This document shows positions 3,358 through 27,899 of a stretch of 38,462 nucleotides of DNA, in pieces. The stretch covers positions 1 through 38,462 of the IMG/VR virus record IMGVR_UViG_3300037110_000058. One strand, 5' to 3'. This stretch comes from a virus. How positions within the stretch are numbered: position 1 is the stretch's first letter; every line of letters begins with the position of its first letter. Below the pieces are notes generated by a model, which worked only from the letters and a program-made list of their open reading frames with translations, did no database searches and had not been told where the DNA came from. The position numbers and the translations under genes were made by a program.

Positions 3358-4217
3358 GACTCCCTTTTCTCATAAATCACGCGAAGTTTAGAACTTCTTG
3401 GCTTAGGCGCTTACCCGCGATGGACTGCGGACGGCTCATTCACCGCCTTACATGCACTACATTTCTTCTCGAAAGGGTCGGTCCCGTCGTCTGGCGCGTC
3501 CTCTTCTGTGAGATTGTCTCCACATTCGATGCAGGTAGGCCACTCGTCAAACAGGCTCGGCTCATCCTGCGGTTTAGGTTTTTCGAGGGGATGGTAGATG
3601 CACTCCCCTTCGTAGCACTCTTCCCATTCAATGTTTATCCAGACGGTCCAGAGAACCTCCATCGTGGGACTTCCAGACTTTGCGCCAAATAGGAAATCGG
3701 GCCTCCATGTCAGTGGCAGGACAAATTGCGGCTGTATCTCACGGAAGAGCTTCAATCGTGATGCGCTGTGCCAGTATTGGCTCTTGAGAAGGAAAGCGAA
3801 GCCGCACTCTGGATTGAGCTTGTTGGCGTGGCGGATAAACGCCTCAGCTTGATTGAACGGAGGATTGGTGATGATGAACGATTCGGGGCAGTCCTCAACT
3901 TCAAGGAAATCCGTTCCGGTCTGAATATCAGAGTCGCGCACTACATAGCCGTTGGCGCGGAGAACCTTGACCATGTGGCCCTCTCCGCAAGCTGGCTCCC
4001 AGATGGTCAACATCTTAGGGAGCATCAAGTGGTTAAGCAATGCCTGTGTGACAGGCGCGGGGGTGGGATAGAAGTCAGTAGCAGCACGATCCCGCCAGTT
4101 CTGCGTCGATGAATTTGCCAGTGTTACGGTCATAGTCCCTCATTCCCTTCTTCAGCGCCCCGCGTGCTCGTAGTATGGATTCATTCAGTCTCCAAGGGAG
4201 TCATGTATATAAGTCCC
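3343..4217. repeat. 24-bp inverted repeat bracketing the methyltransferase gene (arms 3343-3366 and 4194-4217)
   Basis: The left arm on the + strand begins GGGATTTATATACATG and ends ACTCCCTT. The right arm is its reverse complement with one difference (GGGACTTATATACATG on the minus strand), so 23 of 24 bases match. The arms lie about 830 bp apart and contain the 3411-4133 gene plus about 80 bp of leader. Each arm also starts with GGGA and ends with TCCC, so it is weakly palindromic itself. It may mark a cassette boundary or duplicated regulatory sites. Confidence 0.7.
3411..4133 (-). CDS. SAM-dependent DNA adenine methyltransferase-like protein with C-terminal zinc ribbon
   Basis: This 240-residue protein has motif I at residues 46-52 (EPACGEG) and the catalytic NPPF at 90-93, the pattern of N6-adenine methyltransferases. 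FYPTP near residue 21 is also typical of small phage methyltransferases of this type. Two CxxC pairs at 201/204 and 225/228 form a probable zinc ribbon at the C-terminus. There is no obvious target-recognition domain, so DNA specificity is unknown, and some relatives may modify other substrates. The ATG at 4133 has GAGG upstream. No partner nuclease is nearby, so a role in protecting phage DNA from host restriction is more likely than restriction-modification. Confidence 0.75.
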   Translation of the reverse strand: MTVTLANSSTQNWRDRAATDFYPTPAPVTQALLNHLMLPKMLTIWEPACGEGHMVKVLRANGYVVRDSDIQTGTDFLEVEDCPESFIITNPPFNQAEAFIRHANKLNPECGFAFLLKSQYWHSASRLKLFREIQPQFVLPLTWRPDFLFGAKSGSPTMEVLWTVWINIEWEECYEGECIYHPLEKPKPQDEPSLFDEWPTCIECGDNLTEEDAPDDGTDPFEKKCSACKAVNEPSAVHRG

Positions 4218-4352
4218 ATTCCTTTCTGCGTTGAAAGTTATGCGCGGTCCGGCCTCGATTTAGGCTTGCGCCATCTCCACTCCGGCTATGTGTACATGAC
4301 GATGTTCTGCCGCGCATCCCCCGCCGCATTACCCGAAGGTTGGGCGGAGAAG
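4134..4352. other. Gene-poor leader of 219 bp between two operon genes
   Basis: In an otherwise overlapping operon this is the largest gap. It holds one arm of the 24-bp inverted repeat and two very short minus-strand reading frames. One of them, at about 4181-4149, encodes MNPYYEHAGR and then stops. That peptide resembles the N-terminus of another common class of phage DNA methyltransferases, so it may be a remnant. No convincing complete gene or terminator is seen. Confidence 0.4.
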
Positions 4353-4976
4353 TTAAACTTGATCGACGGTGACCGATCCATCCCGATTGATCGTAACCGG
4401 CGTGTCGTCCTTGGAATTGAGTATCTTGTCCAGTTCGGCAATCGTCGGGCGCGATGGCGCGCCGACATAACAGGCAATCGCAAGATTGGCCTGCATAACC
4501 GAGTTGCGGATCGTGCGCATTGCCGCCGTCTTGTCGGCCCCGGCAGGAACGTGCTTGTTGATGGTCTCCGCAAATATCTTGGCAGCGGTGCGAATCTCGC
4601 CATACTGGATGACCTGTGTTTTGGTCGGCGCGCGATAACTGAACCAGTTGTTGATCTCTTCCTGTGCGAAACTGCGCTGGTCGGCAACGACGACATTCTC
4701 CCCAAAAGGCTCGTCCAGCGTGTTGCCCTTCTCGAACTGCTCGGCAGGACTGAAAGAGATGTAGCCGTCCTCGTACTGGACCAGATACCAGCCAGGCTGC
4801 GGAATGGGTTTGTTGAGGATATTGACGATACGCTCGGCGTAGCGCGAATCCTCAAAGGTTATGGCGGCATCGTGCTCAAACGCGCCAATTGTCACCTGGG
4901 CAATCTTGAGAGCCCAGACCGTCTTGTGCGACTTGTAACGCGGCATTTCAATTGCCGCAGTGTTTTCTGCGTTCAA
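4353..4976 (-). CDS. Two-domain phage protein with candidate Acb2/Tad1-type hairpin (cyclic-nucleotide sponge)
   Basis: This 207-residue protein has an N-terminal domain (about 12-92; HKTVWALKI and later GWYLVQYEDGYISFSP) matching a widespread phage domain of unknown function. The C-terminal part (about 110-170) has the pattern of the Acb2/Tad1 hairpin family: WFSYRAP, then QYGEIRTAAKIFAETI, then a helix with SVMQANLAIA. Acb2 proteins soak up the cyclic nucleotides made by CBASS, and Tad1 relatives bind Thoeris signals. The start is a TTG at 4976 that overlaps the acyl carrier protein stop (TTGA) and has AAAGGAG about 8 nt upstream. An ATG ten codons later lacks such a site. Family assignment is by pattern and needs a profile search. 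Confidence 0.6.
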   Translation of the reverse strand: MNAENTAAIEMPRYKSHKTVWALKIAQVTIGAFEHDAAITFEDSRYAERIVNILNKPIPQPGWYLVQYEDGYISFSPAEQFEKGNTLDEPFGENVVVADQRSFAQEEINNWFSYRAPTKTQVIQYGEIRTAAKIFAETINKHVPAGADKTAAMRTIRNSVMQANLAIACYVGAPSRPTIAELDKILNSKDDTPVTINRDGSVTVDQV

Positions 4977-5218
4977 AATGTAACTCCTTTCAAATTCTTC
5001 ACCGCGTCCACAACCTGTCCAACCGTCATCGCCGCGGTGATCGCGCTGTCGGGGATTATGATGTCAAACTCTTCTTCGAGATCCTGGGCAAGTTCGACCA
5101 GTTCGATCGAGTCTAGCTCAAGATCGTCTACAAGGGTATTATCATCCGTGACGCTTGCAATGTCAAATGCCACGACTTCGGCAATGACCTTGCGCACTGC
5201 TGCTGCGATTGTGTCCAT
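4973..5218 (-). CDS. acpP: Acyl carrier protein
   Basis: This 81-residue protein has the full acyl carrier protein fold: four helices, acidic throughout, with the phosphopantetheine attachment site DDLELDSIELVELA centred on Ser37. The usual motif is DSL; here it is DSI, a tolerated change. Length matches bacterial AcpP. It would need a host phosphopantetheinyl transferase for activation. It starts one base after the DnaB stop, with AGGGGG as ribosome binding site, and its stop overlaps the next gene, so it is a genuine operon member. No fatty-acid or polyketide enzyme lies nearby. Its role in the phage is unknown: it may act on host lipid metabolism or as a protein cofactor. Confidence 0.9.
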   Translation of the reverse strand: MDTIAAAVRKVIAEVVAFDIASVTDDNTLVDDLELDSIELVELAQDLEEEFDIIIPDSAITAAMTVGQVVDAVKNLKGVTF

Positions 5219-5219
5219 G

Positions 5220-6635
5220 TTACCCCCTTGCTAGATTGTCGAACCTTGTTAGTTGGCTGACGAATGCGAGCCTTACGATGCCAGTTGGTCCGTTGCGTTG
5301 CTTGCCGATAATCAATTCCGCCAAGGCCTTCTCTGACTCGCTTATATCCTCATCGTGATTATAGTAGGATTCGCGGTGGATAAACGCCACAACATCAGCG
5401 TCCTGCTCGATTTGTCCCGATTCACGAAGATCGGCGAGTATGGGCCGCTTGTTTGTTCTTTGCTCTGGACCACGGTGAATTTGTGCCAGGGCTATCACTG
5501 GAACTTCCAACTCCTTCGCGCACGCCTTGAGCGAACGGGAGATGTGCGCAACTTCTTCTTGGCGGTTGCCAGTCTTCACACCAGCCGACATCAGTTGCAT
5601 ATAATCGACGATGATGAGGTCGAGCCTGCCTTGCCTCTGCTTGAGCCGGCGCGCTTTCGCTCTCAGTTGTATCGGCGTCAGAGTTGCTGAATCGTCAATA
5701 AAGATGTTGTTGGACTCAACCAAATCCCCTAAAGCTGTCTCCAGTTTTATGCGCTCGTCCCGGTTGAGGTATATCCCCTCCTGCGCTTTCCGCACATTGA
5801 CCCAAGCCCTCGACGCCATCATTCTACGCTCAAGAGATGAGCGCGACATCTCCAAGCTGAAGATGGCCACGATATTTTTTTTGCCGATCGCTACATTTTG
5901 GGCTATGTTCATAGCCAGGGCCGTCTTGCCCATCGAAGGCCTCGATGCAATGATCGTCAACTCCGACTTCTGCAGCCCGCCGGTCATGGCGTCATAATCC
6001 AGAAATCCTGTCGGCAGCCCCGGCTTCATCTCTGGATCGGTGTATGCCTTGAGGTAGGGTTCCGTTCCCCCCGCGGCTTCGACCGACTGATAAATCGTCC
6101 GCAGTGCGCCAGCCTGGGCGTCTTGCGCGATCTCAAGGAGCTGGCCCTCGGCCGCTTCGAGTATAGATAGAGGTGTCTCCGACTGATCTTGAGCGCGTAG
6201 CAGCGCCACGTTGAAGAGTTGAATCATCCGGCGGAGCTGCGACTTCTCCAGTACCAGTTTGATGTAGTCGTTCACCACAGGTCTGCGCGGCAGCCCTTCG
6301 GTGAGTCCAGCCAGCGCAGAGATGCCGCCAATAGTGTCGAGTTCCTTCGTTCTCCTCAACCCGGCAGATACAGTGACAATATCGATTGCCGATCCCGCAT
6401 CGATCAACTCTCCAATGCAACGGAAGATGCGGCAGAATGAATCGCTGCTGAAGTCCTCAGGTCTCAACCGCTCTGCTATTTCGTTGTAGTAAACGGGATC
6501 TAGGAGGCACGCCCCGACGAGGGTCTGCTCAGCATGAAGATTTGAGGGAAGACCAGCATCTACCGGCGCGCCCTTCCGCTCTGCTGGCGGATCAGGCGCT
6601 TTGTCGGGCATCGTGAATTGTGAGAGGTCACCCAC
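5220..6635 (-). CDS. dnaB: Replicative DNA helicase (DnaB family)
   Basis: This 471-residue protein unwinds DNA ahead of the phage replication fork as a hexameric ring. The N-terminal domain (about 34-175) starts with the LHAEQTLVGACLLDP motif. The RecA-like domain has Walker A SRPSMGKTA at 231-239, a Walker B-like LIIVDYMQLM near 345, and the conserved ADLRESGQIEQDADVV region with Gln sensor and Arg finger. Length is normal for DnaB. The start is a GTG at 6635 overlapping the previous stop by 8 nt; ATG 6611 is an alternative. No phage primase or helicase loader is recognised, so host DnaG and possibly host loader are presumably used. Confidence 0.95.
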   Translation of the reverse strand: MGDLSQFTMPDKAPDPPAERKGAPVDAGLPSNLHAEQTLVGACLLDPVYYNEIAERLRPEDFSSDSFCRIFRCIGELIDAGSAIDIVTVSAGLRRTKELDTIGGISALAGLTEGLPRRPVVNDYIKLVLEKSQLRRMIQLFNVALLRAQDQSETPLSILEAAEGQLLEIAQDAQAGALRTIYQSVEAAGGTEPYLKAYTDPEMKPGLPTGFLDYDAMTGGLQKSELTIIASRPSMGKTALAMNIAQNVAIGKKNIVAIFSLEMSRSSLERRMMASRAWVNVRKAQEGIYLNRDERIKLETALGDLVESNNIFIDDSATLTPIQLRAKARRLKQRQGRLDLIIVDYMQLMSAGVKTGNRQEEVAHISRSLKACAKELEVPVIALAQIHRGPEQRTNKRPILADLRESGQIEQDADVVAFIHRESYYNHDEDISESEKALAELIIGKQRNGPTGIVRLAFVSQLTRFDNLARG

Positions 6636-7191
6636 GTTTACCTACCAGAATAGCCGTGGTGTAATCCGGCTCCCACAGTTGGATGCTCTCGTTGGCTTTG
6701 TTGAACGCAGCCAGCGCCGCTTCAAGTTCGTCAATGCCGTTCAGGTCGTTGCAGTCGACATCCTCCCACATATTGTCGATGATGTTGGTTGTGCAATCTT
6801 CAAGGTCAATCGTGGGTATGCCGTGCGTCGTGCAAGCCCAGACGTACTCAGGCTCCTGGCCTTTGTCATACTGGTCAATGGCATCCTCGACGGACTCGTA
6901 ATACTGATCTCCGCAGTAGACGTGATCGCCGGTATACTCGGCCTCGGTGATCTTCTTGGCCTTCTCGAAGCGCTCGGCCTCTTGTTTTTCGGCGCGCGCG
7001 CGGCTTTCGGATATATAGCACGCTTCGCACTTGTGGCGATAGTTGGTTTCGATCTTCTTCCCACAGGCGCATATCCGCTCGCCGTGGCACCAATCCGCAT
7101 CTGTCTTGTTTGTGTAAACGCGACGGCATTCTGAGCAGTAGAAGATGCCAGCCGCTGTTCCGTCTTGTTTGAATAATTCAATAGCGCTCAT
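6628..7191 (-). CDS. Zinc-ribbon protein of unknown function
   Basis: This 187-residue protein starts at ATG 7191 with AAGGAAAATC upstream; the longer open frame upstream covers another real gene and is not used. The N-terminal 70 residues carry many cysteines (FYCSECRRV, DWCHGERICACG, HKCEACY), predicting two zinc knuckles. A charged helix follows, and an acidic C-terminal half contains the WEDVDCNDLNG segment. It immediately precedes and overlaps dnaB, so it may be a replication accessory protein, but no family is recognised. Confidence 0.75.
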   Translation of the reverse strand: MSAIELFKQDGTAAGIFYCSECRRVYTNKTDADWCHGERICACGKKIETNYRHKCEACYISESRARAEKQEAERFEKAKKITEAEYTGDHVYCGDQYYESVEDAIDQYDKGQEPEYVWACTTHGIPTIDLEDCTTNIIDNMWEDVDCNDLNGIDELEAALAAFNKANESIQLWEPDYTTAILVGKRG

Positions 7192-7199
7192 GATTTTCC

Positions 7200-7325
7200 T
7201 TACCCTTCCAGTTGAATCACAATCCCAAAGCAGGGAACAGGCAGGATGTACACCCGGCGCTTCACGCGGTCGATGTACACCCCCACCCATAAATCGCAAG
7301 GCTCGAAGATGAAGTAGAACTTCAT
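7200..7325 (-). CDS. 41-residue conserved-type phage protein
   Basis: A very short gene: the ATG at 7325 overlaps the stop of the KTSC gene (ATGA) and the TAA lies 8 bp before the next start. The product begins MKFYFIFEPCDLWVGVYIDR and is followed by a hydrophobic strand-rich stretch (VYILPVPCFGIVIQL). Small proteins with a [K/R]xxDLWxGV pattern are common in phage early regions, function unknown. Evidence is the snug fit in the operon plus the recognisable sequence style. Confidence 0.65.
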   Translation of the reverse strand: MKFYFIFEPCDLWVGVYIDRVKRRVYILPVPCFGIVIQLEG

Positions 7326-7543
7326 CCGACCTTCGTGAAAGTATGCTGGCCTTTGATGTCGGAGTGAAGGAATTCCCCGTGGCTATCGGCGTCGGCGAAT
7401 GCCTGGGCTTTGTCTGCGCCCACGCCATCGTAGACGTAGGTTCCGCCGTGGTGAAAGCGAACGGTCAGCTTCTGTGAATCCGCGTCGTAAGCTGCCGAAT
7501 GGATGTTCTTGGACTGCTTGATGTTGAGAACTTGTTCTGCCAA
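7322..7543 (-). CDS. KTSC-domain protein
   Basis: This 73-residue protein is almost entirely one KTSC domain: SKNIHSAAYDADSQKLTV, then FHHGGTYVYDGV, then ADSHGEFLHSDIK, which match the SS.I..iGYD / F..G..Y.Y / A.S.G.yf...I. pattern of that family. KTSC domains occur in bacterial and phage proteins, sometimes beside Lys-tRNA synthetase; the molecular role is not established. The start is a TTG at 7543 with GGAGGTGTAAT just upstream, a strong ribosome binding site. A second KTSC domain begins the protein at 8162-9625. Confidence 0.85.
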   Translation of the reverse strand: MAEQVLNIKQSKNIHSAAYDADSQKLTVRFHHGGTYVYDGVGADKAQAFADADSHGEFLHSDIKGQHTFTKVG

Positions 7544-17903: not shown

Positions 17904-20900
17904 TCAGAACCGGCTGGTCGTCTTGTGCCGCCGTCCGTGGTGCGACGGTTCAACCTTCTTCGGAGCCATGCCGGGGAGCAGGTTGGTGCCGACGACCTCT
18001 TCGGCGAGCAGGCGCTTGATGATGTTTTTACGCCGATCATCAACACTCAGTTTGTGCTTGCCGGTGTCGGCGGTCGTGTTCACCATATCCTCAGTGGCCG
18101 TGGAGAATGCCTCCATATCCTGACCGGGGATGCCCATGACCTGCGCGGCTACGTCTTTCGTCAAGCCATGCCGCCCTGCCAGTTTCGCGTGATCTTTGGC
18201 GTTGTGGGTAGCCATCGCCTGAAACAAGCTCGACGGGCCTTGCAGACCGATCGCCATGGTGTAGTTCGCCATCGCCCACCAGAGAGCCTCGGACGAGGCG
18301 GGGTGCGCCGCCAGCCATTCGTTCCTCCGTTTCTCGATCTCCGCTTCCGGCGATCCAACCAAGCGATGACGCTGGTAGATCAACTGGTTGAGCGCGAATC
18401 CGGCCAGGCCGGCATTGAACGCGAAGCGTAGCAGTTGCTTATAAGTGTCTGAACTCTTGAAGCCCTCTTCTTTCATCTCATCAAACACCCGGTCTCCAAC
18501 TTGATTCGCCGTCTTAATCATGTACTGATGCAGCATCTGAGTGCAGCGGAATAGCGTGTTGAGGTGAATCATTGTAGGCGAAGCGTTCTTGTCTGGGCGG
18601 AAGATAGGCGGAAGCTCCGAAGCATATCCGCCGCCGACGATGTTGTTGGCGAGTCCAAGTTCCATGCGACGCACATCGTCTGGCCCGTAGCCGTTCTTGA
18701 TGATGTTGTCGAGGTGCTCGTCAGAGAACCCCCACAGGTTTCTCAATTTCCTTCTGAGCGCGGTGTTGGTTGGATCTTTGACAAGCTCTGGATACGCGTA
18801 TCTCTCGAAGAACGCGCGCCCTGTCGCGGCAAGAAAGATGCGCGACATTTGAATCTCGAAGTTAAACCCATTGAAGCGCAAGAATTTATTACCAATACTC
18901 TCCCTCTTGAGCCCGATCTCTCGCATATAAGCGCTCTGCGTGTAGTCGAGTAGGGCGTTGCAATCCATCGCCCGCTGTACCAGTTCTTTCGGGTGTGTCA
19001 TTCCACGCATAAGCCCAAAGAAGAGGCTCCTCGTGTTGGCGTCGGCTGCTGCTCTCCATATATGGGTTCCTACTTTAATAGGACTCCACAACATCTTGCC
19101 AGTAATGACGATCGTGGAAGTCGTGCCGAGAACTTCCTTGTCCACCTCTGGAAGATGCACGGGGTCCATATCGCTCGTAAGGATGCGGTCGATAATAGAC
19201 GCATCTCCATGAGAGAGTTTATTAAGAAGCGGTTCCGTCTTTTCGCGGAACTGGCCATGGACCTCGGTAGAAGCCAAAACAGATGATACTTGGTCAATGT
19301 AGCGTTCAATCGACCTCCGACCACGTTCATACAATGGAATATCAAACTCGCGCGCCCGCTCCGCATTTCCTTGTAGGCGAATGCCGCGGTCATTCTTATC
19401 GAAGAACGCTTGCGCCTTGTTCCTGGAAATGCCGTGCTCATCTGCAAACCTATCAACCAGTTTTTCCCGCTTAATATCAGCGGGGTCCATGTTCATTATT
19501 TCTCCGAGAGTATGGCGCTCAACCTTTCCTGTCTCCGCATTGATGCTCTTATACTCTTTGTTCCAATCGTAAATCCGATGAAAGTAATACGGGTCGTCCT
19601 CGATGGCAGAGTATGGCCTATGCTTCTGCATCCCATCTTCAAAATACACAACGACGCTCCCGACACTAGCGAACGTGCGGCGAATGTCTCTCATAAGGTT
19701 GCGATACTCGAAAGCGGCATTGACGATGCGTTCTGGTATATCTGGCACCACTTTCAACATCTTGGCATCGTACACATACCCCGGCAGCGCTCGGTTCTCC
19801 ACGACCCGCGACATGGTTTCGATGTCTTTTTCGCTCAGTTTGTGGCCTTCTATGATCCCATGGAAAGCGGTCTGTAAACGTCCCTGATACCCTCCCTTCG
19901 TGAGAATCCAATCCGTCCGACGCCGCCGCATTTCCTGGCCGTCTTCTTTCAAACCAGCGCGCCGGTAAACTTTCTCGATCACCCTATACCCGGAGGTGAA
20001 AACTGACCATCCGAGTTCTTGCGCAGCTTTTGCTTTTCTCTGTATGCTCTTTTTTCCATGATAAAGCGCATCTGAGTTGTCCATGAACAAACGGATGTCA
20101 TTTGCCATATCCCGCGTCTTGCGAGTAGCCGCGTTCTCCGCCGACTCTCCAGACCCCATCGCGGCCCGGCCCGCCTCTTCCGCTTCCAGGCGAATGACGC
20201 CCTCGTTGGCGGTGACGGCGCGCGCCTCCGGCGCCGACAGTTTTTTGAGTTTACCAAAGAGTCCATCCCACGCGGCGCTGCCCAGGCGCTCGAAGGGATC
20301 TTCGTCCTTCGGGCCTTGGTGGAGTTTTTCGCCTTTCCCCTTATACTTCATGCCTTTGTTCTTGGCTTTGGCCGCGCTGGGAATCTCGACATCATCAATA
20401 TGTGTGTAGCTGACTCCTTTGCCATCCTGCTCGAAGTCCGCGGCGTCCGGCTTCTCTTCGTCCTGCATAAAATCTCTCACTTCGGCAGGAATTCCAGCGG
20501 CGTCACGAAACGCCTTAGACACATCCGATTCATACTTCTCGCCATAGACCGCCGCCTTCAAAGAGCGCATCCTGGGAAGAGTCTTTGTCGCCAGCGTTTT
20601 CATCTCGGGAAGCGAGTCTGATGTGAAGAAATACATGGCCACATTCGACTTCGATCCGTAGCGCCACGGTCTAGCTGTGCCTTGCTCCAGCATCACTGGA
20701 GACCACGGTACGTCGATAAATAACGCCGCGCGAGGTTTGGTGCCTATTTTGTCTTGAGCGTTAGCCCCAATGGAACCAGCGGCAAAGCTCATATACATCG
20801 CATCTTTTTCACCAGCCTGAAAAGCCTTCAGTTCGCCTGCGCGAACCGCATTATGAGGACCGGCAAAGATAGCGATCTTGTCCCCAAAAGCCTCTCTCAT

Positions 20901-23900
20901 CTTCTCTACCACGTTTGGCAGAGGCGGCAGCATCTTGTTGATCTCCGCGCCCAGGCCGGCTGGCAATTCGTTAAAGAATTCCATCCCCTCCTCAGCCGGC
21001 GAGCGGTACTCGGTGAACATGATAGGCGACCACCCTTTTTCGGACAGATCCTTTGCCAATTTGATGACGTTCGGAAGCCTTGCCGCTGTCAAGTATCGCT
21101 TCAGGTAGATCACCTCATGCCCCTTGACAGGGGTAATGTATTTGCTCATTCCCGCCTTCTGGAATGCGGCCCCTGCTTTGGCGAACGCGGCACGAATACT
21201 GCGCACTCCAGCGCGAACTTCTTCCGTCTGAGGAACGAGCGCTACGCGCGCCTCGACTCCAGTCATATCCTTATATAGCGTCTGCCACTGGCCGCGTTCG
21301 ATAAGTTGCTGGCGCAATTTGGCGAGTTGCTCTGGCGTGGATCGGCTGCTGTATTCGTTTGGTCCGCTCTCGACCAATCCGAATTGCTTTGCCCACTGAG
21401 GGAATCCTCCTTTTGGCCACAGACCCAGTTTGTGCATATAGCCGATCTGCATGATCTTGGAGTATGGCGTGGCGCTGGAGTAGACAACCTTCTTGGCGAC
21501 ATGACCGAGAAGCGTTACAGCTTTCCCTTGCTCTGCTTCTTCCCAATTACTCGCCTCTGCGCTCTCGTCAAACAAGACGAAATCCCACGGTACGGATAGA
21601 ACATCTTTGTCGCCCCTTATCGACGTATATGTTGTGGCGTACATCCCCGTCTGCAGTTGCGACATATCGGATGGGAGATTATCCACATCAATTCCGAACT
21701 TGCGGGCTACGTCCATGTAGCCGTCATCATCCTCAATCAAGTTGCGACTTTTGGTTACAAGCAAACCGACCTTTTCGCCGCCATCTCCGAGAAGATGATG
21801 TGCTATGGCTGACAGAAGCCATGTCTTTCCTGCCCCGGCTGGCGCGGCGAGGATTGTTGCGTCCTGATGTTGAAGAGCCGAGAGGGAGCCTTCGGCGGCC
21901 TCTGCCTGCCCTGGATAGATCATCATCTCGCGCACATCAGGGTCCAGCCGAACTGTAGGCGGCGGCGTGCCCTCCGGCAAGCCGAGAGCTTCTACGTGGC
22001 CGCGCCATACATCAGGGTCTACCACAGGTGTCCCGCGAGGCCTCTTGGGAGCTTGAAGGCTTGCCGCCGGTACATCCGCAAGAGGATTCTTACTCGGCTC
22101 CGCTATTTTTCCTGTTTTTGTCTTTCTCGGAGAACTCTCCCCAAGCGAAACCGCCGTCGGATCACCGCGTACCTGTTGCACGGTCACAGCCTGCGCCGGG
22201 GTCGTCGGCTCATCTAGCCGCGGCATCTCGCTGACGCCGTGAACAAGTTGGATGATGCTGGTATCCTTCGGCTCCGGCTTCCCGGCCCCAATAATACTGG
22301 TGGAGCCGCGCAGTTTATCTTCGATATTGTTCAACTGGCCGCGCAGTAACGCTCGACGTTCAGGGTTATTCTCCCGCTTCAAATCATCTTCAATCGACCT
22401 GGCCTTGCGTGCCAACTCGATCGTTTCGTTCAACCCAGGTTGACGCAACTTCATTGATAAGCTACCAACCCTTATGTATGTAGTCTCCTCTCCTTTAACT
22501 TTTAACATCTCATAATATCCAATCTTTTTTGCATTTCTCTTGAGAAACGCCTTGGCGAGTTTTTCGTCAGTGAAAACCACATCCTGCGTCTTGCCGGACA
22601 CGGGTCTGGCTGACTTCTCGATCACCTTCGCTTCTTTAGGAATTTCTACCTTGTCGGCGAACTCGGCAATAGCATCAATATCCACTCTCTTTATAAATGG
22701 TTTGCGCTCAGCCGTACTCCAATCATGCCATTCATCAAACATGGCATCAAGTTCTTTGTTCCCCGGACCATTCGCAAACGTGCGAACTGAATTATAAATG
22801 GACTGCATCGCCCGGCTTATATGGGCAAACACGCCCTCCATTTTCTTCGTACCCTCCGCGTTGCCGCGCTTGATTCCTCCGTCGTGATAGTAGTGAACAA
22901 ACGCATCCGCGAATCTCTCTTCCTGCTCAGGTGACCACTCTCTTCCCTCTCCCGGAACAAAACCAACAAACTTGTTGGCGATGGCCTGGTATTCCGGTTT
23001 CATGAACCGGCGAATATAATGCGCCATCTCATGAAGATAAGTTGAAGAGTCTGCTGTGTCGCACAAGTGAATCATCGCTTGCGCTTCGTTGAGCATCATA
23101 AAATATCCGCTGCTCTTTGGAGCTTCGGAATCTTCGCCGCCGAATACATAGGTTAATCTGCGGTTGCCGAGAATATCCTCCATGAATTCACCCAACGCCG
23201 TCGGGAGAATATGCTCGAACATCTGCGTGATCTTCTCGGTAGTCTCGATGTCCTTATTGATTTCTGAATGTGCTGCCAGCGCCTTGCGTAATTCCCTCAC
23301 TGACCGCGGGCCTTCCGGCAGCGCCTCGACCACGCTCGACGAGTCCGGCATCACGTCGGCGACCACCGTCTCCGCGTGAACTTCCGGCTCAACCGGCAGC
23401 GGGCCGCGCGCATCCTCGATCGCCGCCTTGACCGCTTCGGGCATCGGCGCAACCGCGCCCCACTCTTCGGGGATGACGCGCAGTGGGTTACCTTCGCCGT
23501 TCTTGAACTTTCCAGCGATCTCAGCATTGAACACGTCTGCCGGGTGTTCGGCGCCAAACATAGATGGCTTTGTTCTATCGGCGTACTTCGCCAGCATCAA
23601 CGCATATTCGCGCGGCGTCTGCTCAAGAGCCATCGCCATAGCGGTAACCGCGTCTGTCTCTGGGTGGCCTAAAGATTGACCGTCCGCAAAAGAAAATGAG
23701 TCAAGACTAAGATCGCCTTGCTCCGCATTCAGACCGTTCTTATCCTCATAATTTCCAGTGTAGAGATACTTCTCAATCAGCGAAGAACTCCCCGCGCCTT
23801 TTGACGTTGCCTCCGAAGTTCCTCTAAGGCGAGACAGGCGATAGGACATTGCATCGGCTTTGGTATACAGCCGCACAGCGTCTGTGTTGTAAGACGCAAG

Positions 23901-26900
23901 GTTCCAATTTTCTCCGGCGCTCTTCGCTTTGACAAAGAACACTCCAGCCCTTGCTAACTTATTCTTCACGTCAGCGGGCGCGTCGGTGAGAACCTGCGGG
24001 TCAGTGACCGTCAACCCAATCAACATATTCTCTATCAAGTCTTTGGTTTTAGGTGTGAGATCCCCTTTGCTCTCTCCATTCTGGACGATATATTCTGTCC
24101 GCTTGTTGGGCGCGATAATTCCCGCGTCCACCAGCAACTGAACAATATCAGAGGAGCGAGTTCGCGTTGCCGTGCGCAACGAAATAGGATGTTCTCTTCC
24201 TTGTTTGTCTGTTTCAATATGCGGCAACGACGAGAAAATGTTGTCGAGTCGGTCGAGATACTCCGGCGTGAGCAGCCTGGACATTGCCACGCCTTCTTCT
24301 TCCGCGCTCGAACCTTTCATTGGATCACGGTTTGAGTCTTCGCCGAGCCTTGTCCACTCGATCTCGCTGGTAACAGGCTCATCCAAAAGCCTGTAAACGT
24401 CGTATGGTTCGCCTCCAAACTCTACATTCCCCGCAGCGTCCGAGAGGCCAAACCTGTCAATGCGCGTAGACCGGAAGTTCATCAACTTCTCATGCGCATC
24501 TGAATGAAGCAATCTTGCCCTCTGCCGAATCATCTCCCGGCCATTGCCGCCGACAACTTCGAGGACTGTCGCGCTTCCATCTGCGTCTGGACGCCACGCA
24601 ACCACAGGCGGACCATCCATCGTAAGAGGGGTGTCTGAGTATAGAATCCTGCCATCGGGGTTGGCGCCGTTGACGATCACGTCTACCTGCGCCGATTTAT
24701 CGGTGTCGTAATGGCGCTTCTGGACCTTCTGGTCGTATCCTTCGGTTGGTTCAAAAGTGACAGGGTGGTGAGAGGTGCGCACGGCCTTCGAGGGAAGCAG
24801 GGCGTAATGAGCCTTGAGGCCTTCTGGATGATTTGGGGTAACAATCTCCGTCACGCCGCCAAGAACAATCTTCGGACGAGGCCGACCAGGGGGCGGTGGC
24901 GGAGCTGGATTTTGAACCGACTCCGCGCCCGCCACAACGGCTTCCGCCTTTTGTCGGACGAAATCCGCCGTCTGCCGTGCGGCATCAGCCGCTGCCGCTT
25001 GACCTTGCGTTTGCAGGTCGTCGGCGGCTTGTTGCAGCTCGCTGGATTTATTTGAAAGGTCTACCACCTGCTCAATTACGACGGGCCGTGCCTCTTCCGC
25101 GTTCTCCCTGAAACTGGCCGCGGTCCGCTCCGCCAGTTCCGTCGCGATATGCGCCTGCGCCGCGGCGCGCACCTGACGCATCCGAACCAGAAACTCATTG
25201 ACCGCCGGCGTCCGCGTCCGCTCCGGCAATGCCTTCACATCTTTTTCGATCCTGAAAAGGTCTGCTGGTGAGTGGACTTCCCCGAGGCCCATCTTCGACG
25301 CCTGCTCCGAAAGTCCCTTGCTAACCCGGCTCACCTCATCCAGCGACGGCGAGCGCCCGGTTTCCGACGCAGTGATTGCCGCCGCAAGTTCGCTGTGATG
25401 GCTGTCACGCTCCTCTGTGACCATTTGCACAGCAAGGTCTTCGTCCATCGACCGGCGAATTGAGTCGCGCTGGTCCATGCGTAGACTGGCGCGCTGCCGC
25501 ATCAGGCCCGCCGCGTCCATGTTGGCAATGTCGATATGCTGGCCGGTACGCATCCGCTCGGTCAGGTCCACCGTCATGAAGGAGTGAACCTTTTCCGGCT
25601 TCGTGCGCAGATAGTCGGCCAGCGCCGCGGCGCGCATCTCGGCGGGAAGCGCGTCGAAAGATTTCCCGATGAACCGCTCGGTGTGCTCATTGAGGTCGCG
25701 GCTGGTTTCAGGGTCCGCTTTAAGCACGGAATCGATGTTGCTGCGCGCGAGGATGAGTTTGGCTGTGCCGGCGGCAATGTCCGCGCCCGGTGCCAGCGGC
25801 TGCTGGTCGCCTGTGGGGTTGCGCGCCAGGTACTGCTTGACCGCGGCATCGGCCAGGTCCGCGTGCTTCACATCGGAGAGGTGCCGCTCGTAGGCCGGAG
25901 TCTTCTTGAAGGCTTCCCATTGCTCGGGGTGACTCTTTTCCAGCCAGGCCGCGGCGAGCTTCTGGCGATCGACAGGCAGCGAGGTGAACGACTGGTCAAA
26001 CTTCTGCTCAGAAAGTTCTTGCACGGCGCGCTCGGCGGCTGTGACCTGGGCGTGCTCTTCGGGTGTGGGCTCTGCGGCAGCGGCGCGGCGGTCGACGACC
26101 GGGATGGCTGGTTCTGGACGCTCAGGATCGTACCGCTGGCCCGATTCGCGCTCAGTAGTCTTGCGCAGGCCGGTGACGGGCAGGTTCTCGGCGGTGCGGC
26201 TCTCGACGACACCGAATCCTCGCTGTTCCTCTTGTGGGATGATTACGTCTGCGCGGATAGCGAATTCTTGTAAATCCAAATCCTTCTGCTGCTGGCGCGC
26301 GGCTGTCTCCCGGCGAAGCGCATCCTGCTTATAGGCCTCTTCCCTCGTTTTGCGCTCGATAATCTGGCGAGTGAGTTTCTTGGCAGCTTCCAGGCGCTGC
26401 TGGCGAACCTCTTCCGTGGTCAGCTCGGCGGCCTCCGCTCCAGCTTTGGCCGCACGCGGGTCGATGCCAACCTTTTTGATTAGCGGACGCCCCTCTGCGT
26501 CTTTCCCTTCTCTGTGGAAGAATCGCGGAGCCACTCGCTTCTGATTGAGCTTCGCAACCTCTTGATACACCCGTTGATACACCCGCTTCTTGAATCGCGG
26601 GTTGGCGTCCTCAACCACCTCATAAAGAACAGAGGCTTTCTCGTTTGGAGTCAGGTCGCCGAACTTCTTCTCGTAGGCTTCCTGCGCCTTGTCGTTGAGA
26701 ATGGCAGTGGTGTCGCGATTTTGGAAGGCGTCCACGCCCTCTCTGATCTTGCCTTCACCGTAACCCATCGCAGCAATGACGGCGATGTTTCCGAGCATCC
26801 CACCCCAGGCTTCCGAACTGGCTCCTGCATCGCCCTTTGCGGCAGCCTCTGATGCTCCCGCAATCCCCTCGACGCCACTCTTCGCGATGTCGGCCTGGAA

Positions 26901-27899
26901 CACCAAACCCATCGGCTTCGAGATAGACTCTGGGGCCATGTAGATAGCGGCCAGAGAATAGATGTTATCAATGCTGGTCATGCCCTCGACAGACTTAGTG
27001 AAGCCGGTCACGCCGCGAGAAAACTTACTTTTGCTGTTTGGGTCAAATACTTTCTGGAAGGCCGCGCTGCCGCTGACGTTCACAAGTAGAGTCTCGAAGG
27101 TTTTCGCAATCTCTTGCTGGAGGCCGAGAGTTTGCTGGGCTTGCGCATCACCCTTCGCTGCTTGTTTCTGCAACATCACCTGCGGGTCAAGGTCGGTTCC
27201 GCCGATAATCGCTGGCGGGATGTTAGGCATTCCCCCAGGGCCACTGCCTCCAAGGAACAAGTCATACATGGCCGAGGAACCTTTTTTAGTTCGACGCCAC
27301 CATGCAGACTCGTGAATTGGCTCTGGCTCCTTTGTTGGCGCAGGCGGCGCGGCCTGCATATCCCATCGCTCAGCGCCATACACTTCACGCTGTAGTCTCT
27401 CGTCAATGGCGCGCGCATCTTTTACTGCGCCCGCGGCTGGACCATGTTTTACGTAATCCCAGACTCCGTTTGACGTAGCGCCCCTAGATGCACTCCGTAA
27501 GTTTTTCTCATAAGCGCTAAGATCGTCGCGGTAACGTTTTTCGTCCGCTTCTGTGACAAAGTTGGTGTGACCATAAGCGCCGAACGGCGCAATAGCGGCG
27601 ACGTGCGGAACCTTACTGAATGGAACCTGCTTTACTTGGCCGTTGATCTTGACGGCGTAGGTTCCCTCTTGGCTCGGGTTCTCTTCGATTTTGGACAGGT
27701 TGCCGGTTGGCGCTGGCGCGGCTGGCTTCTGTATCTTCGCTAATTTGGAGTTCACGAGATCAGCGAACTTGTCTTTGCGACCGCCTTCAATCTTGCGAAG
27801 TTTCTTGTTTACGAGATCAGCGAAGGCATCTTTACCCTCACCACTCTGAGGTGCGGTGGGCGCGGGCGGAGTGGCGGTATTCGTCTGAGTGTCGGCCAT
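17904..27899 (-). CDS. Giant polyvalent virion-type protein: ParB-like, metallopeptidase and SF2 helicase domains
   Basis: This protein has 3,331 residues in one frame. It opens with two copies of FADLVN-x-KL-x-KI (residues ~25-57). Two copies of a ~40-residue helical repeat lie at about 635 and 743 (both SF..LP..R...A..L). A ParB-like domain follows at ~1030-1180 (LLPSKAVRTSHHP, then VVGGNGREMIRQRARLL). A zincin HEMAHYIRR lies near 1622, with a possible third ligand Glu in EERFADAF. An SF2 helicase spans ~2000-2450: Walker A APAGAGKTW near 2016, FVLFDESAEA near 2108, YSSATPYS near 2138 and GTARPWRYGS near 2404. The C-terminal ~800 residues are mostly helical. This matches phage polyvalent proteins that are injected with DNA to protect or process it. 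It follows two probable internal proteins. Confidence 0.88.
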   Translation of the reverse strand: MADTQTNTATPPAPTAPQSGEGKDAFADLVNKKLRKIEGGRKDKFADLVNSKLAKIQKPAAPAPTGNLSKIEENPSQEGTYAVKINGQVKQVPFSKVPHVAAIAPFGAYGHTNFVTEADEKRYRDDLSAYEKNLRSASRGATSNGVWDYVKHGPAAGAVKDARAIDERLQREVYGAERWDMQAAPPAPTKEPEPIHESAWWRRTKKGSSAMYDLFLGGSGPGGMPNIPPAIIGGTDLDPQVMLQKQAAKGDAQAQQTLGLQQEIAKTFETLLVNVSGSAAFQKVFDPNSKSKFSRGVTGFTKSVEGMTSIDNIYSLAAIYMAPESISKPMGLVFQADIAKSGVEGIAGASEAAAKGDAGASSEAWGGMLGNIAVIAAMGYGEGKIREGVDAFQNRDTTAILNDKAQEAYEKKFGDLTPNEKASVLYEVVEDANPRFKKRVYQRVYQEVAKLNQKRVAPRFFHREGKDAEGRPLIKKVGIDPRAAKAGAEAAELTTEEVRQQRLEAAKKLTRQIIERKTREEAYKQDALRRETAARQQQKDLDLQEFAIRADVIIPQEEQRGFGVVESRTAENLPVTGLRKTTERESGQRYDPERPEPAIPVVDRRAAAAEPTPEEHAQVTAAERAVQELSEQKFDQSFTSLPVDRQKLAAAWLEKSHPEQWEAFKKTPAYERHLSDVKHADLADAAVKQYLARNPTGDQQPLAPGADIAAGTAKLILARSNIDSVLKADPETSRDLNEHTERFIGKSFDALPAEMRAAALADYLRTKPEKVHSFMTVDLTERMRTGQHIDIANMDAAGLMRQRASLRMDQRDSIRRSMDEDLAVQMVTEERDSHHSELAAAITASETGRSPSLDEVSRVSKGLSEQASKMGLGEVHSPADLFRIEKDVKALPERTRTPAVNEFLVRMRQVRAAAQAHIATELAERTAASFRENAEEARPVVIEQVVDLSNKSSELQQAADDLQTQGQAAAADAARQTADFVRQKAEAVVAGAESVQNPAPPPPPGRPRPKIVLGGVTEIVTPNHPEGLKAHYALLPSKAVRTSHHPVTFEPTEGYDQKVQKRHYDTDKSAQVDVIVNGANPDGRILYSDTPLTMDGPPVVAWRPDADGSATVLEVVGGNGREMIRQRARLLHSDAHEKLMNFRSTRIDRFGLSDAAGNVEFGGEPYDVYRLLDEPVTSEIEWTRLGEDSNRDPMKGSSAEEEGVAMSRLLTPEYLDRLDNIFSSLPHIETDKQGREHPISLRTATRTRSSDIVQLLVDAGIIAPNKRTEYIVQNGESKGDLTPKTKDLIENMLIGLTVTDPQVLTDAPADVKNKLARAGVFFVKAKSAGENWNLASYNTDAVRLYTKADAMSYRLSRLRGTSEATSKGAGSSSLIEKYLYTGNYEDKNGLNAEQGDLSLDSFSFADGQSLGHPETDAVTAMAMALEQTPREYALMLAKYADRTKPSMFGAEHPADVFNAEIAGKFKNGEGNPLRVIPEEWGAVAPMPEAVKAAIEDARGPLPVEPEVHAETVVADVMPDSSSVVEALPEGPRSVRELRKALAAHSEINKDIETTEKITQMFEHILPTALGEFMEDILGNRRLTYVFGGEDSEAPKSSGYFMMLNEAQAMIHLCDTADSSTYLHEMAHYIRRFMKPEYQAIANKFVGFVPGEGREWSPEQEERFADAFVHYYHDGGIKRGNAEGTKKMEGVFAHISRAMQSIYNSVRTFANGPGNKELDAMFDEWHDWSTAERKPFIKRVDIDAIAEFADKVEIPKEAKVIEKSARPVSGKTQDVVFTDEKLAKAFLKRNAKKIGYYEMLKVKGEETTYIRVGSLSMKLRQPGLNETIELARKARSIEDDLKRENNPERRALLRGQLNNIEDKLRGSTSIIGAGKPEPKDTSIIQLVHGVSEMPRLDEPTTPAQAVTVQQVRGDPTAVSLGESSPRKTKTGKIAEPSKNPLADVPAASLQAPKRPRGTPVVDPDVWRGHVEALGLPEGTPPPTVRLDPDVREMMIYPGQAEAAEGSLSALQHQDATILAAPAGAGKTWLLSAIAHHLLGDGGEKVGLLVTKSRNLIEDDDGYMDVARKFGIDVDNLPSDMSQLQTGMYATTYTSIRGDKDVLSVPWDFVLFDESAEASNWEEAEQGKAVTLLGHVAKKVVYSSATPYSKIMQIGYMHKLGLWPKGGFPQWAKQFGLVESGPNEYSSRSTPEQLAKLRQQLIERGQWQTLYKDMTGVEARVALVPQTEEVRAGVRSIRAAFAKAGAAFQKAGMSKYITPVKGHEVIYLKRYLTAARLPNVIKLAKDLSEKGWSPIMFTEYRSPAEEGMEFFNELPAGLGAEINKMLPPLPNVVEKMREAFGDKIAIFAGPHNAVRAGELKAFQAGEKDAMYMSFAAGSIGANAQDKIGTKPRAALFIDVPWSPVMLEQGTARPWRYGSKSNVAMYFFTSDSLPEMKTLATKTLPRMRSLKAAVYGEKYESDVSKAFRDAAGIPAEVRDFMQDEEKPDAADFEQDGKGVSYTHIDDVEIPSAAKAKNKGMKYKGKGEKLHQGPKDEDPFERLGSAAWDGLFGKLKKLSAPEARAVTANEGVIRLEAEEAGRAAMGSGESAENAATRKTRDMANDIRLFMDNSDALYHGKKSIQRKAKAAQELGWSVFTSGYRVIEKVYRRAGLKEDGQEMRRRRTDWILTKGGYQGRLQTAFHGIIEGHKLSEKDIETMSRVVENRALPGYVYDAKMLKVVPDIPERIVNAAFEYRNLMRDIRRTFASVGSVVVYFEDGMQKHRPYSAIEDDPYYFHRIYDWNKEYKSINAETGKVERHTLGEIMNMDPADIKREKLVDRFADEHGISRNKAQAFFDKNDRGIRLQGNAERAREFDIPLYERGRRSIERYIDQVSSVLASTEVHGQFREKTEPLLNKLSHGDASIIDRILTSDMDPVHLPEVDKEVLGTTSTIVITGKMLWSPIKVGTHIWRAAADANTRSLFFGLMRGMTHPKELVQRAMDCNALLDYTQSAYMREIGLKRESIGNKFLRFNGFNFEIQMSRIFLAATGRAFFERYAYPELVKDPTNTALRRKLRNLWGFSDEHLDNIIKNGYGPDDVRRMELGLANNIVGGGYASELPPIFRPDKNASPTMIHLNTLFRCTQMLHQYMIKTANQVGDRVFDEMKEEGFKSSDTYKQLLRFAFNAGLAGFALNQLIYQRHRLVGSPEAEIEKRRNEWLAAHPASSEALWWAMANYTMAIGLQGPSSLFQAMATHNAKDHAKLAGRHGLTKDVAAQVMGIPGQDMEAFSTATEDMVNTTADTGKHKLSVDDRRKNIIKRLLAEEVVGTNLLPGMAPKKVEPSHHGRRHKTTSRF

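Follow-up and report, generated by a model that had tools for sequence, protein, structure and literature searches.

Why would a temperate phage keep a gene for an acyl carrier protein (ACP) beside the gene for its replicative helicase? We examined this question for a viral record of 38,462 nt (IMG/VR IMGVR_UViG_3300037110_000058; "the window" below), in which acp lies directly downstream of dnaB on the minus strand. Phage ACPs as such are already known. They occur in published phages and prophages, with a function stated as unknown or hypothetical (PMC3037559, PMC5463345, PMC8224337, PMC11705849), and they are usually filed, without tests, as auxiliary metabolic genes of lipid synthesis. The original prediction for this locus called them uncommon, which needs qualifying: in addition to these published cases, a narrow pattern scan of IMG/VR returned 309 ACP-encoding viral contigs, part of them probably bacterial DNA. 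New here are a fixed dnaB-acp module, a clade-wide shift in helix II and the lack of companion enzymes in the available sequence. The features of the locus are:

4353..4976, minus strand: downstream gene with an Acb2/Tad1 hairpin domain (PF24729, E 4e-7), in a variable slot where other genes replace the hairpin gene in relatives; 4-base overlap with acp
4973..5218, minus strand: acp, encoding an 81-aa single-domain acyl carrier protein (PF00550, E 5e-12; phrog_5934; AlphaFold model and PDB fold match)
4984..4990, minus strand: ribosome-binding site of the downstream gene, AAAGGAG, within acp (junction sequence)
5066..5110, minus strand: helix II (residues 37-51), the usual ACP partner-recognition helix, with family-specific changes (model secondary structure and residue counts)
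5108..5110, minus strand: codon of Ser37, the predicted 4'-phosphopantetheine attachment site (LDSIEL; D36-S37-I38)
5149..5218, minus strand: N-terminal part of the ACP (helix I and loop), exchanged between relatives by recombination (dS and dN, window against L004)
5220..6635, minus strand: dnaB, replicative helicase (PF03796, E 5e-98), which lies just upstream of acp in each of the 17 related contigs, with a homing gene between in two
5223..5229, minus strand: ribosome-binding site of acp, AAGGGGG, just 5' of the dnaB stop codon (junction sequence)

The window encodes a complete ACP in a replication operon

The acp reading frame runs from ATG to TGA and encodes the protein MDTIAAAVRKVIAEVVAFDIASVTDDNTLVDDLELDSIELVELAQDLEEEFDIIIPDSAITAAMTVGQVVDAVKNLKGVTF. 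This protein scores 46.2 bits against the Pfam PP-binding model (PF00550; cut-off 20.8), its best PHROG match is PHROG 5934, "acyl carrier protein" (E 8e-11), and a sequence search of the PDB matched it to solved ACPs at E of about 1e-10. The ACPs of relatives L058, L128 and L125 also score above the PF00550 cut-off, and PHROG 5934 is the best match for all four subgroups of dnaB-linked ACPs, these relatives included. AlphaFold2, given an alignment limited to the window and its relatives, predicted the helical bundle of the PP-binding fold (pLDDT 88.7, pTM 0.76; helices at residues 3-16, 37-51 and 66-77) with Ser37 at the start of helix II, and Foldseek placed several complexes of E. coli AcpP at the top of its matches to the model (38% identity, query TM 0.83). 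Together these results show that the protein is a genuine member of the PP-binding family with a predicted ACP fold, and they bear out the original proposal of a complete phage ACP in a replication operon with a predicted prosthetic site at Ser37.

The protein shares its fold, length, Ser position and acidic helix II with bacterial AcpP of type II fatty-acid synthesis (PF00550, TIGR00517), but it is only about 38-40% identical to AcpP, whereas many other ACPs of our comparison set reach 56-68% identity to E. coli AcpP. Several NCBIfam ACP models match it, every one below its equivalog cut-off; for the AcpP equivalog TIGR00517, the score is 54.9 bits against a cut-off of 70.45. The dnaB-linked ACPs also differ from AcpP at A34, L37, D38, V43 and M44, and the window acp lies beside dnaB instead of fabG or fabF.

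On the coding strand, dnaB ends in ...AAGGGGGTAAC|ATG..., such that its stop codon and the ACP start codon are one base apart. At the other end of acp (...TTTTGA...), the stop codon overlaps the TTG start of the 4353-4976 gene by four bases. The operon had been described as overlapping; this holds for the junction between acp and the 4353-4976 gene, and not for that between dnaB and acp. The product of the 4353-4976 gene, earlier named a candidate sponge, does contain an Acb2/Tad1 hairpin domain (PF24729; 30.5 bits, cut-off 27).

A long antisense ORF on the plus strand (4164-5234) covers acp; we regard it as spurious, since family matches and selection favour the minus-strand gene.

dnaB-acp is the constant unit of one phage lineage

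A survey of dnaB neighbourhoods in related phages had been suggested as a check on the prediction. Scanning IMG/VR with the window ACP identified 12 contigs with close orthologues (75-100% identical), in all 12 of which the ACP is directly downstream of dnaB. A broader ACP scan contributed L057-L059 (ACP identity 48%), and a search starting from DnaB contributed L125 and L128, with acp again immediately behind dnaB in each case. In total, therefore, 17 other viral contigs have the ACP behind dnaB, with ACP identities to the window of 39-100% and DnaB identities from 100% down to 52%. L003 and L004 carry an insertion of an HNH homing-type gene between the two, and retain acp behind it with a GTG start. 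Conservation in 17 other contigs excludes a chance ORF, and we rejected an artefact on the grounds of conservation and selection (see below). Nor is acp a near-identical copy of AcpP lacking conservation in relatives, the outcome named beforehand as speaking against the prediction: the gene is conserved and diverged, with the host's own AcpP lying outside the comparison.

The linkage is confined to part of DnaB diversity. No PP-binding domain was found in the whole records of 23 DnaB relatives at ≤47% identity, or within 3 kb downstream of dnaB in L129-L132 (DnaB identity 45-53%). Among the other viral ACP contigs sampled outside the clade, dnaB is adjacent to acp in none, and DnaB is encoded a few kb away in two. 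The dnaB-linked ACPs form one clade against 59 other viral and bacterial ACPs (FastTree local support 0.954; IQ-TREE SH-aLRT 79.2, UFboot 84). This support is moderate, in keeping with an alignment of some 78 positions, and the other ACPs had been chosen for their similarity to the window. These trees show that, as judged from their sequences, the dnaB-linked ACPs share a common origin. In one lineage of uncultured temperate phages, acp is a core gene, made together with the replicative helicase.

The genes that follow acp vary. The Acb2/Tad1 hairpin gene is found there in the window, L001, L006, L007, L011, L012 and L128, a 91-aa gene without a family match in L002, L004, L005, L008 and L009, and neither of these in L010 and L057-L059. 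What stays constant is hence dnaB-acp; the stretch between it and the integrase gene is exchangeable and counter-defence-like in content. A Mom-like DNA modification protein (L002:4484-4942) and a DNA methyltransferase (window 3411-4133) are encoded between dnaB-acp and integrase; their presence in the same variable region suggests that it is a counter-defence island.

Several observations concern the mosaic structure of this region. In the window (4353-4976), the PF24729 hairpin is the C-terminal part of a fusion whose N-terminal domain also occurs in other phages; the hairpin stands alone in L011 (4064-4384), and the hairpin gene of L128 is at 4683-5276. The homing genes of L003 (3246-3791) and L004 (4405-4950) are of the HNH/AP2 type and have relatives in the window at 95-766 and 1993-2610. 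Upstream of dnaB, a gene at 6628-7428 overlaps a small KTSC-like gene (7322-7543); its first approximately 76 residues are common to most relatives and the remainder is exchanged, marking a further mosaic junction near dnaB.

Helix I is exchanged and the rest of the ACP is under purifying selection

When acp of the window is compared with that of L004, strong divergence is seen in the first 24 columns of the alignment (dS 0.53, dN 0.45) and the rest is nearly identical (dS 0.02, dN 0.02): acp contains a recombination junction, with helix I exchanged and helix II constant. The whole-gene dN/dS (0.9, window against L004) is misleading owing to this recombination, and selection was therefore measured on the C-terminal part. 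In the comparison with L011, dS is 0.92 and dN is 0.09 for that part, showing that helices II-IV are under purifying selection, with a dN/dS of about 0.1.

The near-identical C-terminal halves of the ACPs from the window, L002 and L004 are combined with different downstream genes and with DnaB proteins that are 61-85% identical to that of the window. Conversely, L005 has a DnaB that is 98% identical over 256 residues, yet a different allele of ACP helix I. Since the same C-terminal half pairs with differing DnaB proteins and downstream genes, the ACP does not co-vary with its phage neighbours. We infer that the partner of the conserved surface, which comprises helix II and everything after it, is not inherited along with these phage genes; a host protein is the simplest candidate.

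Helix II carries a clade-wide signature

We aligned 11 distinct dnaB-linked ACPs with 59 others (E. coli AcpP, bacterial and other viral ACPs), using mature E. coli numbering. The attachment Ser is kept in all 11 and the preceding Asp in 10; the ACP of L057-L059 (e.g. L058:4986-5231) has Gly-Ser-Leu in place of Asp-Ser-Leu, and may be modified more weakly by AcpS-type enzymes. The fold, the Ser and the acidic helix II residues E41, E47 and E48 are kept in nearly all copies. By contrast, A34 is replaced by Leu or Met in 11 of 11 dnaB-linked ACPs (Ala in 54/59 others), D38 by Glu in 11 of 11 (Asp in 52/59), V43 by Ala or Gly in 11 of 11 (Val in 36/59), and M44 by Gln in 8 of 11 (Met in 45/59). 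The change at residue 43 argues against a wholly unique shift, in that Ala is found there in 9/59 other ACPs. Mutations of L42-V43-M44 in E. coli AcpP weaken binding to SpoT and to fatty-acid enzymes, and some of the mutants still support growth (PMC3340395). Our literature search found no assay of the exact substitutions seen in the dnaB-linked ACPs; the shift in helix II may reflect an altered choice of partner.

Companion enzymes and other phage ACPs

The scan of the window proteins turned up no fatty-acid enzymes, in line with the original prediction. In 13 records (the window and 12 relatives), we also found no phosphopantetheinyl transferase (PF01648; present in 10 of 14 control genomes) and no ketosynthase (PF00109; controls positive), in records that are probably fragments, at most 38-70 kb for clade members, such that a distant partner gene may be missed. 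Because PF01648, PF00109 and lipid enzymes are all missing from the available sequence, the phage would, on this evidence, depend on its host for modification and acyl loading of the ACP, a statement that is strong only for the available sequence.

Among other phage ACPs, those of PHROG 5934 (moron or auxiliary metabolic gene) belong to the same family as the dnaB-linked ACPs, and adjacency to dnaB distinguishes the latter from the others sampled. Cyanophages P-HM1 and P-HM2 likewise have a stand-alone ACP with Asp-Ser-Leu, but theirs is longer and lies in a baseplate neighbourhood, and these phages reportedly encode an ACP synthetase of their own (PMC3037559), whereas no synthetase (PF01648) was found in the probably fragmentary records of the window lineage. 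The ACP-like protein of Serratia Miltonvirus (Ackermannviridae) is annotated as an ACP and belongs by sequence to the carrier-protein family; unlike the window ACP, which keeps its Ser, it has this residue replaced (LDELD) and is not a canonical carrier. Some phage ACPs are thus not classical carriers, as the protein of Serratia phage Kevin (L052:3890-4162), a Miltonvirus, lacks the attachment Ser. The acpP of Rhodobacteraceae prophages, with fabG-fabF in some (PMC8224337), and the ACPs of Erythrobacter phage R6L and Alteromonas phage R22Y (PMC5463345, PMC11705849) are also phage-encoded, and are set apart by their described neighbourhoods and hosts.

Two groups of matches were not counted as phage sequences. 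Most fecal "phage" ACP matches (MT83...) look like pieces of bacterial chromosome, with ACPs adjoining ribonuclease III- and SMC-like, FabD/FabG-like or acetyl-CoA carboxylase-like genes, and were used only as bacterial comparison sequences. H3 is a misfiled bacterial chromosome contig with secretion-system genes and was left out of the analysis.

Possible functions of the dnaB-linked ACP

The explanation that we tentatively favour, and to which we give a little less than an even chance, is that the phage ACP is a dedicated carrier, phosphopantetheinylated by the host, that acts on a host ACP-binding protein during phage replication. Host holo-ACP synthase would load the 4'-phosphopantetheine arm onto Ser37 during infection, and the holo- or acyl-ACP would then engage a host ACP-binding protein through its altered helix II, displacing or outcompeting host AcpP while phage DNA replicates. 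The target would be a host protein and not the adjoining phage gene; candidates are enzymes of fatty-acid or phospholipid metabolism, and regulators, for instance of the Rel/SpoT type. Binding to a host ACP partner seems more likely than simple redirection of lipid synthesis, because helix II is changed and partner enzymes are lacking. With acp welded to dnaB, under selection, changed in helix II and found with no metabolic companions, a non-metabolic role in host takeover is directly testable, and the lineage warns against taking every viral acpP as a membrane-lipid gene.

Phage ACP genes are usually interpreted in print as ordinary auxiliary metabolic genes (PMC8224337, PMC11705849): the product would add to the host ACP pool and thereby raise or retune the synthesis of fatty acids and membranes. 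Binding to host fatty-acid enzymes is plausible given the retained fold, Ser and acidic residues. We nonetheless consider this explanation unlikely, if a serious candidate: no companion fab genes were found, unlike in roseophages with fabG-acpP-fabF (PMC8224337), the low identity to AcpP lies outside the range that E. coli AcpP shows with many other ACPs, central recognition residues are altered clade-wide, and the position of acp is fixed in a replication operon. Quite unlikely, in our view, is a replication-coupled carrier that involves no lipid chemistry, in which holo-ACP would seize a host ACP-regulated switch so that phage DNA replication proceeds. Examples of such a switch would be an alarmone enzyme of the Rel/SpoT type or an SMC complex, possibly a defensive one, that binds ACP.

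The linkage to dnaB could equally reflect a role in replication itself, with the ACP binding and regulating phage DnaB or another replisome or DNA-organising protein, by analogy with the stimulation of MukB by AcpP. Indeed, dnaB-acp is invariant in 18 contigs including the window, and AcpP is a known partner of MukB, a DNA-organising ATPase (PMC8602292). The pairings described above make this role improbable, however: nearly the same C-terminal half follows divergent DnaB proteins in L004 and L002, nearly the same DnaB is accompanied by differing helix I alleles in L005, and most DnaB relatives lack any ACP.

Another improbable explanation makes the ACP part of the variable anti-defence island behind dnaB, as a decoy or cofactor directed at an ACP-using or ACP-sensing defence protein of the host. 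It would account for the proximity of acp to hairpin genes in seven contigs, the window among them, and for the Mom-like gene and methyltransferase nearby, but a typical island gene would vary, and here the ACP persists as the genes of the island turn over; moreover, a literature search on ACP and anti-phage defence yielded nothing relevant. This explanation and that of a host target overlap. A cofactor role in DNA hypermodification, prompted by the Mom-like gene of L002, was rejected, as that gene is in no other relative examined. Recent capture of host acpP, or a neutral passenger, is very improbable: acp is slightly lower in GC than the genome (0.50 against 0.55; GC3 0.56 against 0.63-0.78), but it is conserved over deep divergence and under purifying selection, and no close bacterial relative was found in phages, plasmids or the PDB.

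Host and other features of the genome

Scans of genome contigs by ACP and integrase alignment gave no confirmed host match, and the first 25 kb of the window have no DNA-level relative among 50,697 phage records. The hairpin domain has a match in Tunturiibacter phage Tunturi_1, and PMC11924767 reports an ACP in vOTUs linked to Acidobacteriota. A host among soil Acidobacteriota is no more than a lead, because all five Tunturi phages lack a PP-binding domain. Elsewhere in the window, a giant protein of 3331 aa is encoded at 17904-27899; one region of it resembles a helicase (weak match to PF13872), and the protein is conserved in a 65-kb relative (L213:9709-19590).
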